Of a stretch of DNA of 64,000 nucleotides, positions 12,020 through 61,190 are shown piece by piece (position 1 is the first letter of the stretch; every line of letters begins with the position of its first letter). The notes beneath the pieces are model-generated. The model had not been told where the DNA came from. It saw nothing but the letters and a program-made list of their open reading frames with translations, and searched no databases. The translations under genes and the position numbers were made by a program. Source of the DNA: Ulva prolifera (lineage: Eukaryota > Chlorophyta > Ulvophyceae > Ulvales > Ulvaceae); contig CM041198.1 in NCBI GenBank assembly GCA_023078555.1, positions 3,395,354 to 3,459,353 on the forward strand. Direction: 5' to 3'.

Positions 12020-12369
12020 TGTCAGAAAGCTATCATTCGTTAGGTCAGACGCGCAGTCTTATGGCAAGTCAGGAGGCCAGCATCTCATACCTGCTGCGCA
12101 CAGAGGTAGAACCAGAGAGAATGCTGAGAGAGAGACAGGATACTGCTAGTACCGTGAAACTGTGATAGTAATGGTTACAGATCTCAGTGCGCACATGCTT
12201 ATATGCACACTGAACACTCACGGTTACGGCGGGAAACCCTCGCACGATCTCTCTCACTACATCGAGACAATCTCGGCTGGCGGCTTACCCCTGCACTGGA
12301 TCCGCGGATCGTCCGTGCATGGGTGCACCTGTCACCACATTGCTGCCCGCAGGCTCATGCATTGTGACA
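12020..12369 (-). repeat. Copia family A 3' LTR (minus-strand element)
   Basis: Reads TGTCAGAAAG...ATTGTGACA on the plus strand, the inverse of the family A LTR (TGTCACAATG...TTTCTGACA). The polypurine tract (GGGTTTATGGGGGAG read on the minus strand) abuts at 12370-12384, so internal sequence lies to the right. This is the 3' LTR of the remnant that continues at 12751-13773. Confidence 0.85.
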
Positions 12370-12390
12370 CTCCCCCATAAACCCTGCTAT

Positions 12391-12745
12391 TGTCAGAAAT
12401 GCTATTCTTTGTGCAAGGCGGACGCGCAGTCCTCATTCAGATCAGGTCAGGTAAGCCAGCATCTCATACCTGCTGCGCACAGAGGTAGAACCGAGAGATG
12501 CTGAAGGGAAGTGCTAGTACCGGGAAACAGTAAAGAGAATGGTTACAGATCTCAGTGTGCACATGCTTATATGCACACTGAACACTCAAACACTCAAGGT
12601 TACGGCGGGAAACCCTCGCACGATCTCTCTCACTACATCGAGACGATCCTAGCTGGCGGCTTACCCCTACACTGGATCCGCGGATCGTTCGTGCATGGGT
12701 GCACCTGTCACCACGCTGCTGCCCGCAGGCTCATGCATTGTGACA
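12391..12745 (-). mobile_element. Solo LTR of copia family A nested in another copy
   Basis: A 355-bp LTR in minus orientation without internal sequence, flanked by the direct repeat GCTAT (12386-12390 and 12746-12750). It lies between the RNase H stop codon and the polypurine tract of a family A element, splitting the tract from the coding end. The TSD shows it inserted as an element and was later reduced to one LTR by LTR-LTR recombination. Confidence 0.9.
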
Positions 12746-53707: not shown

Positions 53708-55130
53708 AGGGGGTCAACCACTCCCGCTACATGGTGGGCCCACCTACGGCGCGCAAGATCGGCTGCGATTTTGGCCGCTTGGGGAAGACTTTGGCTATTG
53801 TCTATGATGAATGGGCATTCGTAGTGTATCATCTCGCTGTTGGGGAGTCTCCCCATCGCAAACCCGGGTTTTGTCGAATTTCCGCGCTTTTCCCCAAACG
53901 AGGGTCGTTCATGCCCAAACGTGTGCCATTGCATCGAGAACACGTAGCACACTCAAAATATGCTATGATACTCACCGGGTTATGACATATTGCTTCTGTC
54001 ACATTTGTGGGTAGCGTTCGGTGAGGCACTATTCAACGGCGCGCTAGCTGATCGGGCCGACATGGCGGGGCGCTCACGCACTGGTCAGGCAACATGTCAG
54101 CATTGATTGGCAGCATATTGCGTGTTGAATATTGCGTGTTGAATATTGCGTGTTGAAGGACCCTGCCTCAATTTTATGTGCAATGGGGAATGCCCATGTT
54201 TTGTAATGCACCGTCACATCTACACCTTATTTCACAGCATGTCACTCTAATGATACCGCAAAATTAATGCGCATCAATGATGTATCCACCGTGTATCCAG
54301 CATCCACCGCTCGATTGAAATGATTCATTAGTGTACAATGGCGAGGCATGATCACAGCAGGCCAGAGTAACTCAAAACGTCTCCAGTGACACTACGCAAA
54401 AGATGACCTAAGCATACCTACGCTGACGTCTTCGTTGAGAAGTACACACCTAGCAGGTGGACTGCAAAGCTCCGGATCATGCTCCATCACAAGGGCCTGT
54501 CAGGCCTGTCAAAGGAATCAAGATACTCATGCGCCCCATGCCGATATCAAACATTCTACGAGAGTGACGATCAATCAGGATCAGGCAGTGAAGCTTTGAT
54601 ATCTCGTGTTTGAGCCACTATCCCATCCTACACACAGATCGCAGGTAGGACGCCCTGTCCGGATATCAAGAGATTCGGACCTATCCAGCATTATTAGAGG
54701 GATTAATACGACTCAAATTGCATAGCGTGCGTCACTATGTGGCCAGCCCCAAGGAAACTCAGCCGTATACAGCTTCATGAAGCCTCACCAACGAAAAAAA
54801 TGCACATACAGCCTTGCGATCACCAACAAGAGCTTTAAAGAGCTCATTTTAAAGGCGTTTGGGGACGCCTGCGAACGATTGGGGAGGTTTGGGGAGGCGA
54901 CTGAGCGTCTGGGCCGGTTGGGGAGCCAGCGTCGCGAAAGGCCGATTTTCCCCAACCAGACGAGCCATATGGACGATCATGGGCCATTTTCCCCACCCGA
55001 GTGAGATGACACACTACGAATCCCCATTCAACATAGACAATAGCCAAAGTGTTCCCCAAGCGGCCAAAATCGCAGCCGATCTTGCGCGCCGTAGGTGGGC
55101 CCACCATGTAGCGGGAGTGGTTGACCCCCT
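53708..55130. mobile_element. Non-autonomous TIR DNA transposon H2 (1.42 kb)
   Basis: TIRs of about 125 bp starting AGGGGGTCAACCACTCCCGC, flanked by the 8-bp direct repeat ATCAGAAG (53700-53707 and 55131-55138). Removing the element restores the copia B frame. The right subterminal region is dense in TTGGGGA words (54855-54955). There is no transposase ORF; the interior 53990-54770 has no recognisable gene. It belongs to the same family as 7921-9510. Confidence 0.92.
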
Positions 55131-55138
55131 ATCAGAAG

Positions 55139-55265
55139 TATGCTGAGGAGATACTGCAGCGGGGGGAATGGCCGAGGCTAAGCCCAAGTCCATACCGCTG
55201 GCAGGGAATCTCAAGCTCAGCAGCGAGGGTGATGATCAGATGGAAGATTCGTCTGATTATGCAAC
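55139..55265 (+). pseudogene. Copia family B RT 3' part
   Basis: Continues the RT frame after H2: QKYAEEILQR, KPKSIPLAGNLKLSSEG, DSSDYA. Ends at the GCAAC duplication (55261-55265), where the palindromic copia C block is inserted. The rest resumes at 60961. Confidence 0.85.
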
Positions 55266-55650
55266 TGTTATAAACGAGAACCTATTATGTGTGCATTAGG
55301 AGGTTAGTAGTGCCTATACCTGGAGAGCCGCCAGGTCGTACGATAGGTCACTACACAGATCAGGGAGAATACTGCACAGGTTGCAAGACAATGCAGGATG
55401 TAAGAGGTTACTATGGAAGATGTAAGAGAAAGGTTACTTCAGACTTGGACGCATACGACTATATGCGACCATTCGTGCATGTCTACCGTGGCCCAATGAC
55501 AATGGCCCGGGGCGAGCCGCTCACGGAGCGCCCCAAGTATGCTCATGCATACTATCCTAACATAACACGGGTTGGGCCCTTGGCCACCATACCCATGCGC
55601 AGACTTGCGCGTCATGCATTGCAGGTGTACCTAGACACTGATTTATGACA
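55266..55650 (-). repeat. Copia family C LTR, left arm
   Basis: 385 bp, on the minus strand TGTCATAAATCAG...CGTTTATAACA. Compared with the right LTR it carries about 13 extra bases near 55400 (AAGAGGTTACTAT region) and scattered substitutions, so the arms are similar but not identical. Confidence 0.88.
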
Positions 55651-55655
55651 CTCCC

Positions 55656-58600
55656 CTAGAAGGTCTTCTGATCTTGAATTAGATGCAGCTTCTCTCGAAC
55701 GTCCTTCAATGCAGGTCCAGGCAAAACCTTAGTGAAGACATCAGCTAACTGGTCTTTGGTCCCTACCCATTGCACTTGGATCTCATCCGCCTCTACAAAT
55801 TCTCGGACCCATAGGTGCCGCACTCGAATATGTTTGGACCTATCACTAGAGATTGGATTGTTTGCAAGGATATTCGCACTTTTATTATCTCCCCAAATCA
55901 CCGGTTTTTCTGGACGAAGATGCAAGTCTAGCAACAATTGCTTGGCCCACATCAATTCGTTTGCTGCACTACTCATTGCTATCAATTCTGCCTCGGTCGT
56001 ATCACCAGCTGTGATCGCCTGTCTCTTTGACCTCCAGAACACAGTATTGCCATACACCCGTAGGAATAGGCCACTTATGCTCTTCAAACTCTTGTCATTT
56101 GCAAAATCAGCATCAGTGTATCCCTCAAGCAAACAGCTCTTCTCGGACGAGCCCTTAAACACCATACAAAGTCCCTTCGTGGACTGCAGGTATCTCAGCA
56201 CATGCTGCACCGCTGACCAATGCTCCTTTAAGCTACACCCCATATGCTTAGCCAAAGCATTACAGGCATAAGAAATATCAGGTCGCGTAACTACAGCCAG
56301 GTACTGGATTCCCCCTACAGCACTCATGAACTGAGCGTGCTCTGCCTGAGTGGCAACCTCAAGGTCAGAGTAGTCCTTCGCGCTCCTCAACTGTTGCCGT
56401 GGCACCAGTGGAGTCGGACTGGGTCTGCAATCTGCCATGCTAAACTTTTCTAGCAGATACACAATCTTCTGCTCTTGGGACAACGTGATCGTTCTCTTCT
56501 TCCTGTCACGCTTGATAGAGGCGCCTAATGCCCAAGACAAATCGCCTAAGTCCCTTCCGGTGAACACTTTGAGAATTCGGTCTATCAACTCCTTCAGGCC
56601 CGTGGACCGTCCGAAGATAAACAAATCATCAACCCATAGGAAGATGAAACATATACCAGTTTTCCTAACATGCAGTGCAGGATCTGAGTGTGAGCGAACA
56701 AAGCCCATCTCACCCAGTAGACGTGCAAGCGCCTTGTGCCATTCACGTGGTGCTTGCTTCAAGCCATACAGGGTCTTAAGCAGTTTCCACACTCTACTGG
56801 TGCCATCGTTCAAAACCTGGGGTTGTTCTACATAAACAGTCTCATTCATGACCCCATTGAGAAAGGCACACTGGATGTCTACGTGTTTCATCTCTAAATC
56901 TTCCACTGCAGCTATTGACAGAACAACACGAAGAGTGGCATAGCTCCCTACTGGAGCCCACGTCTCAAAGAAATCTACACCCTCCTCCTGGGTAAACCCT
57001 CTAGCAACATACCGCGCCTTGTAACGCTGGATCTCTCCTGTAGGTCCCCTCTTAATCTTCATGACCCATTTACCAGAGATGGCCTTAGCCCCTACGGGCA
57101 ATTCTACCAATTCATAGGTGCCATGCTCACTCAAAGAGTTCACCTCTTCCTCCAGAGCTACCATCCACTTCTCCCTATCAGGCCCAGCCAACGTTGCCTT
57201 CCAGGGTGGATTGTCTGGATCAGCAGGTTTCTTCTTCATGACAGCAGCAACCCGGCGGGATGGACGTCGCCGGCTTGACTGACCACCGCCATGTTCCACA
57301 TGCTCAGCTACCTCTGCATCAAGCAACGCACTGTCAGCCGTAGCTGCCATGCTTGAACTGCCCGCAACCTTTGGTGCTACTGTCTGCTCACTCACATCAC
57401 TATGCTCATCATCACAAGCTACAGTATCTATCGCAGCAACATCTGCATGTGGAATCAAGCGCCTGCGTACAAGCGGGTTCCATTTTTGTCTAACTGGACC
57501 AGAATGCGCTTCCTGCCCATGGGCATCAGCAGCAGTGTCATCATGCAAACTAATCTCCTTAGCAGGATGCATGGACTCTCCAGCGACAGGTGAGCTGGGC
57601 GGACTTACCTCTCCCCTAGGGACAAATCCGCCTCCTGAACTGAACATGAGTTCCTCCCCTGGACCCAGGCGGCTAGCCATAGCTTGGCCAAACCCGGGCA
57701 TGTCAAGGGAGGGTCCCCCAACATCAGTTGCGTCACCTCGCGGCGGGGCAGCTGCTCCCGCCGCGGCAGTTGGCGGCGGATGTTGTTCCTCAACGCCGTC
57801 CATGACGCTCACCTCATCAGTCTGTGGGGCATTTGACCTCGCAGCTCTGGCGGGGCTGCCAGATTCCAGAGGTCTCCCCTGCTGGGCACGGCTCCTGGTG
57901 ACGGGCCTCATGTCGATCTGAGCGCCACTCAAGTCCCGGAAGTTGTGGACGTTTGAATAGTTGAGAGCGTCCCTATTGGCATACATCTCCCCCGATTGAG
58001 GAGGGTAGCGCACTGCTGTATGCCCCAACACTTTCGTGCGCACGACATCATGCACTCCTTCTACCACCTCAGGTGTGGACATCTTAGTTCTTCCCTGCAA
58101 CTCTACCGGACCGTCCGGCGCACCGACTCTGGGCGCGATGCTACGACCTACTTGCAATTCCTCACGCAAGTCACGCAGCTCTGGCGTGTCCTCCATATGC
58201 TGCGCGGGCGCCAGCTGGATAAAATCACTGTCATGTAATTCACCAAGTTGTCTACCTATGGCGAACCCATCGAAATCAAAAGTAGCAGCGCCATGCACGC
58301 GCATGTGCTCTTTGCGGGACTCAATTAAATCCAGATCGGGAAACGGAGGGGCACCAGACATCACACACTTATCCAGATCGGGACCAAACGTTAGCTCCTC
58401 TTCCGGGCCCATAGGCACCAGAGGCACATTTCCCGGCGTCACAACATCTAGCGTACGCAAGTGATCACGCAACATGGCAGCACTGTATGACATTTGCCGC
58501 ACCTCCAGCACTCTGCCACCCCCGGGGCAACGCTGGAAGACTCTATTCATGTGGGGCCCTTGCCCTGGCCCCATCCACAGTACAAGTTCACCCCTGGGGT

Positions 58601-59063
58601 CTAACCTACGCAACTTATCAGAATCAAGGTAGACGTAGACCGGCAGCCCCCATGGGAGCATCTGCGCAATCATGAGCTTGACACGCTCAGAGTCATATGT
58701 GTCTTTGTAAAACAACATATACGGGATGACATCTGCAAGATCATTGTCTATCCACTCTTTCCGCAGCATTTCGTTTTCTTTTGCTTGATCTATCTGTTGC
58801 TTAACTCGTTCTATAGTTTCTTTGCTAGGTTCGACAGCCGAAATGTCGGCAGTGGTCTTATGGACCCCCCCGAACTGCACTGTATTGATGTCCCTACCCG
58901 TCGCATTCCTATATCTACCTAAATTGGCCAAAAGGCGCTCAAGCTTGTCCGCAAGATGTTCTTTTTGCAGGCGTTTCATGACAGCGGAACTAGGAACCAG
59001 ATTCGCTGCAGCGGTCCCACACAACATCCCCTCAGGCCATGCACGGCGTGTTATGTTGGACAC
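55656..59063 (-). CDS. Copia family C integrase C-term, RT and RNase H
   Basis: 1135-residue open frame, the longest intact frame in the window. Integrase C-terminal region: IPYMLFYKDTYDSERVKLMI ... GELVLWMGPGQGP. Then an acidic Pro-rich linker, RT (RYKARYVARGFTQEEG; DIQCAFLNG; FIFLWVDDLFIFG) and RNase H (YTDADFAND; TTEAELIAMS; GDNKSANIL; DQLADVFTK). A frameshift at about 59055 separates it from the integrase core upstream. Layout parallels family A, with roughly half the residues shared. Confidence 0.9.
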   Translation of the reverse strand: MSNITRRAWPEGMLCGTAAANLVPSSAVMKRLQKEHLADKLERLLANLGRYRNATGRDINTVQFGGVHKTTADISAVEPSKETIERVKQQIDQAKENEMLRKEWIDNDLADVIPYMLFYKDTYDSERVKLMIAQMLPWGLPVYVYLDSDKLRRLDPRGELVLWMGPGQGPHMNRVFQRCPGGGRVLEVRQMSYSAAMLRDHLRTLDVVTPGNVPLVPMGPEEELTFGPDLDKCVMSGAPPFPDLDLIESRKEHMRVHGAATFDFDGFAIGRQLGELHDSDFIQLAPAQHMEDTPELRDLREELQVGRSIAPRVGAPDGPVELQGRTKMSTPEVVEGVHDVVRTKVLGHTAVRYPPQSGEMYANRDALNYSNVHNFRDLSGAQIDMRPVTRSRAQQGRPLESGSPARAARSNAPQTDEVSVMDGVEEQHPPPTAAAGAAAPPRGDATDVGGPSLDMPGFGQAMASRLGPGEELMFSSGGGFVPRGEVSPPSSPVAGESMHPAKEISLHDDTAADAHGQEAHSGPVRQKWNPLVRRRLIPHADVAAIDTVACDDEHSDVSEQTVAPKVAGSSSMAATADSALLDAEVAEHVEHGGGQSSRRRPSRRVAAVMKKKPADPDNPPWKATLAGPDREKWMVALEEEVNSLSEHGTYELVELPVGAKAISGKWVMKIKRGPTGEIQRYKARYVARGFTQEEGVDFFETWAPVGSYATLRVVLSIAAVEDLEMKHVDIQCAFLNGVMNETVYVEQPQVLNDGTSRVWKLLKTLYGLKQAPREWHKALARLLGEMGFVRSHSDPALHVRKTGICFIFLWVDDLFIFGRSTGLKELIDRILKVFTGRDLGDLSWALGASIKRDRKKRTITLSQEQKIVYLLEKFSMADCRPSPTPLVPRQQLRSAKDYSDLEVATQAEHAQFMSAVGGIQYLAVVTRPDISYACNALAKHMGCSLKEHWSAVQHVLRYLQSTKGLCMVFKGSSEKSCLLEGYTDADFANDKSLKSISGLFLRVYGNTVFWRSKRQAITAGDTTEAELIAMSSAANELMWAKQLLLDLHLRPEKPVIWGDNKSANILANNPISSDRSKHIRVRHLWVREFVEADEIQVQWVGTKDQLADVFTKVLPGPALKDVREKLHLIQDQKTF

Positions 59064-59462
59064 ATGAGCGCTCTCAGTCTATCAGAAGTGGCACCACATT
59101 CACGCTCAGCTATGCCATTGCCCTGATGATTGCCTGGTGCACAGTCTTCCCAAACAATGTGCTTCTCACGAAGATAGGCCTGGAAGACATGGCCCAGAAA
59201 TTCTCCGCCACGGTCACCACGCGAGAATCTAACACGTCCTGGAACAGGCGGCTGGCCTTTCTTGATGACAACTTGCCCAGGAACAACTGTAGAATTGCAG
59301 TGTTCTATGATCTCTACTAGCAATTCAGGGACGCTGGACTTTGCATCCATAGGGATAGTGAATCTAAAAACGGGAAAATTCATCAACTACAATCAGCGCA
59401 TACTTTGCTTTCCCAACTCCCATAGGAGTAATGGGACCTAGAACATCCGCATGCAAGCACGC
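59051..59462 (-). pseudogene. Copia family C integrase core, cut at palindrome junction
   Basis: Holds HADVLGPITPMG (first Asp), DRGGEFLG (second Asp) and GNGIAERE (Glu), the D-D-E triad. It begins mid-protein at about 59460, where the sequence switches to plus-strand RT (LYGLKQAAREWH) with at most a few bases of overlap (CCC). Confidence 0.85.
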
Positions 59463-60580
59463 CCCTGTATGGCTTGAAGCAAGCAGCACGTGAATGGCAC
59501 AAGGCGCTTGCACGTCTACCGGGTGAGATGGGCTTTGTTCGCTCACACTCAGATCCTGCACTGTATGTTAGGAAAACTGGTAGATGTTTCATCTTCCTAT
59601 GGGTTGATGATTTGTTTATCTTCGGACGGTCCACGGGCCTGAAGGAGTTGATAGACCGAATTCTCAAAGTGTTCACCGGAAGGGACTTAGGCGATTTGTC
59701 TTGGGCATTAGGCGCCTCTATCAAGCGTGACAGGAAGAAGAGAACGATCACGTTGTCCCAAGAGCAGAAGATTGTGTATCTGCTAGAAAAGTTTAGCATG
59801 GCAGATTGCAGACCCAGTCCGACTCCACTGGTGCCACGGCAACAGTTGAGGAGCGCGAAGGACTACTCTGACCTTGAGGTTGCCACTCAGGCAGAGCACG
59901 CTCAGTTCATGAGTGCTGTAGGGGGAATCCAGTACCTGGCTGTAGTTACGCGACCTGATATTTCTTATGCCTGTAATGCTTTGGCTAAGCATATGGGGTG
60001 TAGCTTAAAGGAGCATTGGTCAGCGGTGCAGCATGTGCTGAGATACCTGCAGTCCACGAAGGGACTTTGTATGGTGTTTAAGGGCCCGTCCGAGAAGAGC
60101 TGTTTGCTTGAGGGATACACTGATGCTGATTTTGCAAATGACAAGAGTTTGAAGAGCATAAGTGGCCTACTCCTACGGGTGTATGGCAATACTGTGTTCT
60201 GGAGGTCAAAGAGACAAGCGATCACAGCTGGTGATACGACCGAGGCAGAATTGATAGCAATGAGTAGTGCAGCAAACGAGTTGATGTGGGCCAAGCAATT
60301 GTTGCTAGACTTGCATCTTCGTCCAGAAAAACCGGTGCTTTGGGGAGATAATAAAAGTGCGAATATCCTTGCAAACAATCCAATCTGTAGTGATAGGTCC
60401 AAACATATTCGAGTGCGGCACCTACGGGTCCGAGAATTTGTAGAGGCGGATGAGATCCAAGTGCAATGGGTAGGGACCAAAGACCAGTTAGCTGATGTCT
60501 TCACTAAGGTTTTGCCTGGACCTGCATTGAAGGACGTTCGAGAGAAGCTGCATCTAATTCAAGATCAGAAGACCTTCTAG
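59463..60580 (+). pseudogene. Copia family C RT-RNase H, right arm
   Basis: Plus-strand copy starting at LYGLKQAAREWHKAL and running to the stop after IQDQKTF. It is nearly identical to the equivalent residues of the minus-strand frame, with a few changes (LYVRKTGRCF versus LHVRKTGICF; PICSDRS versus PISSDRS; LRVREF versus LWVREF). It ends in a polypurine tract (AGGGGAG) next to the LTR. Confidence 0.9.
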
Positions 60581-60585
60581 GGGAG

Positions 60586-60960
60586 TGTCATAAATCAGTG
60601 TCTAGGTACACCTGCAATGCATGACGCGCAAGTCTGCGCATGGGTATGGTGGCCAAGGGCCCAACCCGTGTTATGTTAGGATAGTATGCATGAGCATACT
60701 TGGGGCGCTCCGTGAGCGGCTCGCCCCGGGCCATTGTCATTGGGCCACGGTAGACATGCACGAATGGTCGCATATAGTCGTATGCGTCCAAGTCTGAAGT
60801 AACCTTTTTCTTACATCTTCCATAGGTTCCTGCATTGTCTTGCATCCAGTGCAGTATTCTCCTTGATCTGTGTAGTGACCTTTCGTACGACCTGGCGGCT
60901 CTCCAGGTATAGGCACTACTAACCTCCTTATGCACACATAAAAGGTTCCCGTTTATAACA
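60586..60960 (+). repeat. Copia family C LTR, right arm
   Basis: 375 bp, TGTCATAAATC...GTTTATAACA, immediately followed by GCAAC (60961-60965), which repeats 55261-55265. Confidence 0.9.
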
Positions 60961-61190
60961 GCAACGATCGTGGGCAAGCTAATGTATTTAGCTACATGCA
61001 CACGATCGGATCTGGCGTATTCTGTGGGGCTGCTGGCTTGATTTATGGCCAAGCCTTGGGAGGAGCATTGCCAGTCACAGAGGCTACAGCAGGATTGGCC
61101 CACCCGGGTGCGCCAAGAAACCAAATGCGCTAGATGGGGGTGCGCGGACATCTGTAATGCTGGGAACTGCTCAGAAATCAATTTTAGGGC
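60961..61190 (+). pseudogene. Copia family B RT-RNase H linker, resumed
   Basis: After the GCAAC repeat the host copia continues: IVGKLMYLATCTRSDLAYSV, matching the conserved (I/V)G-L-YL-TRPD-YAV segment directly downstream of the interrupted DSSDYA. A TGA follows in the next motif. Similarity fades by about 61150 and no RNase H or LTR follows, so the 3' end is deleted. Confidence 0.85.

Follow-up and report, generated by a model that had tools for sequence, protein, structure and literature searches.

Several known systems resemble parts of the insertion reported here. The Angela, Squiq and Opie complexes of grasses are copia-type composites that carry one 5-base-pair (bp) duplication and have been ascribed to template switching (Sabot and Schulman 2007; PMC1950507). 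Autointegration of Ty1 and of retroviruses leads to inverted or truncated circles (PMC4751563 and PMC2644782), and PMC3738965 describes foamy-virus intasomes that were assembled with U5 DNA and retain concerted integration activity. Here, we describe a Ty1/copia-family insertion that has the U5 (unique 5') end of a long terminal repeat (LTR) at both of its outer borders. This block occupies positions 55266-60960 of a 64,000-nucleotide stretch of Ulva prolifera DNA (GCA_023078555.1, CM041198.1), the whole of which we call the window. The window was placed in contig C3 of the assembly searched (88.9 Mb, 44 contigs).

Five full-length copies of the family show what a normal insertion looks like. 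Their LTRs are 375 bp long with TGT...ACA ends (a single 5' LTR ends in ACC instead of ACA), a primer-binding site lies directly 3' of the 5' LTR and a polypurine tract precedes the 3' LTR. Each copy has one U3 (unique 3') end, starting TGTCATAAATC, and one U5 end, TTTATAACA, and perfect 5-bp duplications flank all five. The block, instead, ends on both sides, reading outward, in ...TTTATAACA, so that its borders are U5 and U5; both are exact, and primer-binding-site letters are absent from them. It consists of two head-to-head copies, both 5'-truncated: a minus-strand copy of 4.2 kb and a plus-strand copy of 1.5 kb. Measured from its U5 end, the longer left copy terminates in integrase-like sequence and the right copy inside the reverse transcriptase (RT); of an element that is 6.9 kb long, their inner ends have lost about 2.7 kb and 5.4 kb, respectively. 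The left LTR (55266-55650, minus strand) measures 385 bp, including a 10-bp insertion (55401-55410), against 375 bp for the right LTR (60586-60960, plus strand); U5 faces outward in both. In BLAST, the arms 55265-56773 and 60961-59463 align in inverted orientation at 98.0% identity. The initial annotation of the window had proposed outward U5 ends on both sides with GCAAC at both junctions, and the borders and inverted arms agree with it. It had also spoken of palindromic arms, which holds for the outer 1.5 kb, the only mirrored part of the left copy; that copy is in fact 4.2 kb long. The indel of 10-13 bp that it saw between the LTRs, together with substitutions, is real and amounts to 10 bp net.

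The target site tells how this structure entered the chromosome. GCAAC stands at 55261-55265 and again at 60961-60965, within another copia element. On the left, a fragment of this host (55131-55265, plus strand, C-terminal region of RT) ends in GCAAC, and it is in frame with the sequence from 60966 onward, where the host continues (60966-61075, plus strand). Rejoining the flanks with one GCAAC restores an open copia pol frame (...DSSDYATIVGKLMYLATCTRSDLAYSVG...), and four other host copies, 95, 95, 91 and 83% identical, carry the site uninterrupted; the prediction that the host reads through once the block is removed thus proved correct. In all four aligned copies the five target bases are present once and ungapped, as GCAGC, GCAGC, GCTAT and GCAAC (a fifth spanning match, 71% identical, was left out of this alignment). 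A 5-base match would arise by chance about once in 1000, assuming equal base frequencies. Because there is a single duplication, because the paralogous sites are empty and because normal copies follow the same 5-bp rule, we take the block, from its sequence, to be the product of one integration that used two U5 ends. The initial annotation had further held that the inverted structure itself was the integrating molecule, made in aberrant reverse transcription. One integrase event with two U5 ends is what the single duplication, the empty site and the normal 5-bp rule support; an origin of the palindrome during reverse transcription is not established by them. Nor is such an origin necessary, as finished complementary DNAs (cDNAs) that were synapsed by their U5 ends and joined afterwards fit the anatomy at least as well.

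At the inner joint (59463-59465) the two copies overlap by 3 bp (CCC), and integrase-side sequence meets RT without any LTR end, much as the annotation had described a centre joining integrase to RT with almost no homology. Forty matches were scored out of 141 candidates. The joint is spanned by the block alone, and each of the remaining 39 matches, among them the block's own left arm, covers one side of it. As far as these scored matches show, the block would not be an element that has multiplied. A central polypurine tract was considered as the cause of the joint and rejected: the left-break sequence CCGGGGGCG lies in the sole match of an exact search, copy L063 (three others tried gave no match), and the purine tracts of at least 10 listed for copy L071 are all more than 1 kb away.

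Both arms retain coding sequence. The left arm holds an open frame of 1140 codons (55656-59078, minus strand) with RT, and the right arm an open frame (59463-60585, plus strand) with the second half of RT; PF07727 (RVT_2), the copia-type RT, is matched in both (E = 8.9e-51 and 5.9e-16). Each frame continues into what we take to be the RNase H end of pol, and in the right arm the polypurine tract AGGGGAG adjoins the right LTR. In the left arm, RT is preceded by a stretch with what is presumably an integrase motif (59051-59386, minus strand). It is truncated, frameshifted and without a Pfam match, and comparison with five other copies reveals a 4-bp deletion near 59060 and an extra base near 59370. 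Private change in the left copy amounts to 0.93-0.98% (spacer and arm body), slightly above the top of the five normal copies used for this comparison out of 20 fetched (0.80-0.86%). Because this difference is small and the 1140-codon frame is still open, we infer that the insertion is not ancient.

How are the two arms related? We aligned them with 16 of the 20 fetched copies, giving 18 rows; L054, L061, L062 and L072 were dropped as not unbroken across the arm. Apart from the 10-bp insertion in the left LTR, the arms differ by 21 substitutions over 1498 aligned positions. Nineteen of these are private changes, 12 of them in the left arm (where two touch the insertion) and 7 in the right, and the only two differing sites with an allele seen elsewhere are 60217, where A occurs in 4 of the 16 copies, and 60387, where G occurs in one. 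Five derived sites are common to both arms and occur in none of the 16 other copies. A tree of the region that leaves out the outer LTR part places the arms as sisters, with support of 92/95 from a bootstrap that had not settled. Because of the shared derived sites, the mostly private differences and this sister position, the arms are, judged by the alignment, each other's closest relatives among the 18 rows, and would both descend from one source. The LTR differences had been read in the initial annotation as favouring two templates; in view of the same private and shared sites, we reject two different templates as the main cause of the divergence. Most of the divergence would be younger than the source, or would represent errors made during the event. 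Two RNAs from one source locus are possible, and two such RNAs in one particle fit as well as one RNA. Gene conversion between the arms may have occurred: three of the five shared sites lie inside a 503-bp stretch without arm differences (chance of such a gap 0.0096, for a stretch chosen afterwards), but in a runs test the order of shared and private sites did not depart significantly from chance (0.197).

The two borders, the repeated GCAAC, the empty site in other copies and the inner joint are all observed, and from them we can reconstruct the steps that may connect them. In our view, two sister cDNAs from the same source element probably each gave a U5 end to one integration, and their inner ends were end-joined. 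These cDNAs, probably within one virus-like particle, would each supply a U5 end to one integrase complex, which would join both ends to opposite strands of one target and so create the 5-bp duplication. The shortened inner ends would be joined head to head by end joining at the 3-bp microhomology, and the arms would diverge afterwards by private mutation. Integrase recognises LTR tips, and two U5 ends may resemble its normal pair, since 8 of 11 bases agree between the U3 start and the U5 end when the latter is read inward (TGTTATAAACG). The concerted integration activity of foamy-virus intasomes assembled with U5 DNA (PMC3738965) also speaks for such a pairing. The likeliest order, which we put forward tentatively, is that the U5 ends integrated in trans and that the free arms were then trimmed and joined. 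Close behind, as a possible order, the cDNAs could have been joined before integration, via end joining or a template switch of nascent minus strands. The exact plus-strand U5 end is made late in reverse transcription, once the transfer RNA primer is gone. Because the U5 borders are exact and without a primer-binding-site remnant, finished cDNAs are favoured over very early aborted ones, and for the same reason we rank integration in trans of finished cDNAs slightly above joining before integration. The block might be a natural record of bimolecular integration in trans: two finished sister cDNAs would have been synapsed by their U5 ends, through a copia integrase, at a single chromosomal target, and the broken chromosome would have been briefly capped by two cDNA arms and healed by microhomology end joining. 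We hold this view with some reserve.

One could also imagine that a single molecule sufficed: a nascent minus strand would prime itself, and the resulting hairpin would be copied into a linear palindrome with two U5 ends, which then integrates. One template predicts both the sister position of the arms and their five shared derived sites, and the 3-bp overlap at the joint could have acted as the primer. The similarity of the arms, however, is equally expected of sister RNAs from one locus, and a hairpin would offer one double-stranded U5 end, so that it would need a second primer and would have to be copied throughout. We regard such a foldback as unlikely and place it below the two orders above, since just one end of the hairpin could be used. 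Another alternative is later rearrangement: two elements of opposite orientation at the same GCAAC, or conversion by an inverted copy, would be followed by loss of the middle. Nested and rearranged copia copies are present in the window and in the genome, but this history requires that a second element hit the identical 5 bp or that a switch fell no more than three bases from the LTR tip. The left outer end, moreover, is U5 sequence from its fourth base and not a U3/U5 hybrid, and in the tree none of the 16 other copies is as close to either arm as the arms are to each other. We consider this history likewise unlikely.

The sequence was judged from the assembly alone, so a chimeric join near 59463 has to be weighed as well. 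A false join there would not produce a left U5 border with a matching duplication, and the 21 substitutions and 10-bp indel between the arms do not look like one read folded back; we consider an artefact very improbable. The reading that we prefer, two sister cDNAs each giving a U5 end to one integration, faces difficulties of its own. The joint does not reveal whether joining came before or after integration, and losing several kb from free ends after integration implies an open chromosome break in need of repair. The alleles at 60217 and 60387 also fit slightly different templates, the proposed steps do not account for the many private changes that both arms carry, in excess, in their outer LTR parts, and the block is a single example from one assembly without reads.

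This excess concerns 55266-55428 and 60808-60960. The outer 156 of 1518 columns hold 8 of 17 private arm substitutions (the two beside the insertion being excluded), compared with 23 of 170 in the same region of the 16 other copies (Fisher 0.002, with the boundary at column 1393 picked after viewing the data). A-T transversions make up five of the eight. Synthesis at the ends may have been error-prone. In the left LTR, the 10-bp insertion looks like neighbouring LTR sequence copied by slippage. When the outer LTR of the left arm was compared with the genome (40 matches scored of 115 candidates), the other 39 reached at most 92% identity.

The initial annotation had suggested looking for other copies with inverted arms, and this search brought up no second U5-U5 insertion among the pairs screened. 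The U5-end pattern matches 99 places, at least two of which belong to a related copia family; a reversed control pattern matched five, so a few may be chance. Among these places, the block is the sole outward-facing pair within 9 kb. Within 25 kb the block's family has six outward pairs, of which only the block behaves as one insertion; the other five do not. In the related family, 100 of 125 U5 ends were listed, and the four outward pairs among them include no single insertion. In each of these nine other outward pairs, at least one member is recognisable as a 5' LTR by its primer-binding site or as a solo LTR by a duplication of its own, or the flanks fail to match. As for U3-U3 counterparts, the block's family has five inward pairs within 25 kb, and the closest, C7:3961904/3974241, is made up of two solo LTRs, each flanked by a repeat of its own (GCGTT and GTACAC). 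Two of the four inward pairs of the related family, C7:4450231/4451841 and C3:11281558/11282607, were read on both sides. In each, the left member is flanked by a separate duplication (TACGG and ATAAT, respectively) and the right member has a primer-binding site, so they are not U3-U3 insertions.

Several other features were seen on the way. The related family, whose U5-end pattern matches 125 places, has six LTR pairs spaced exactly 6455 bp apart (C1:4120479-4126957, C2:8644375-8650853, C2:11978404-11984882, C5:5992213-5998691, C6:2433136-2439614 and C7:4801280-4807758), and this identical spacing suggests that the family has been recently active. Two LTRs 77 kb apart, L088:58-67 (C7:3613877) and L074:31-40 (C7:3691060), share ten identical upstream bases (GTCATGCGCC), perhaps through local duplication. 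Adjoining the block, at 53708-55130, lies an element with inverted ends of about 140 bp; nine inverted end pairs about 1.3 kb apart were found among 40 scored genomic matches. For another genomic match set, 40 of 228 candidates were scored. At 12020-12745, a solo LTR of another copia family (12391-12745, minus strand) is nested in a related copy, immediately in front of that copy's 3' LTR; the solo LTR carries the duplication ATAGC and is ordinary.

The block makes integrase end choice readable from a chromosome: two U5 ends, one target and one duplication. If such events recur, outward U5 pairs with a shared duplication would be a signature for gauging how often integrase pairs the ends of different cDNAs, and the events themselves would be a source of natural inverted repeats. 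Inverted repeats can trigger silencing or instability. If the U5 ends were indeed integrated in trans, retrotransposons would have a one-step route to both inverted repeats and chromosome breaks. Among the titles and abstract openings listed from the open-access literature, we found no chromosomal insertion of an LTR element with U5 at both borders.

How, then, does the block relate to the described systems? Like the prototype foamy virus intasomes studied in vitro, it indicates that U5 ends suffice for concerted integration; that case (PMC3738965) is a test-tube reaction with short DNA substrates, whereas the block is a chromosomal insertion. With autointegration products (PMC4751563 and PMC2644782) it shares an inverted structure produced by integrase and cDNA. 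Autointegration, however, attacks the cDNA itself and gives circles, in which an LTR end is joined to internal sequence; the block hit an outside target with two U5 ends, and its inner joint lacks an LTR end. The grass complexes (PMC1950507) come close in another way, as they too are composite copia insertions with one 5-bp duplication and were inferred to stem from two RNAs and a single integration. They differ in having three LTRs, with an internal LTR shared by two complete cores and formed through a jump between R regions, whereas the block combines two LTRs in opposite orientation with two truncated cores and has U5 at both borders.

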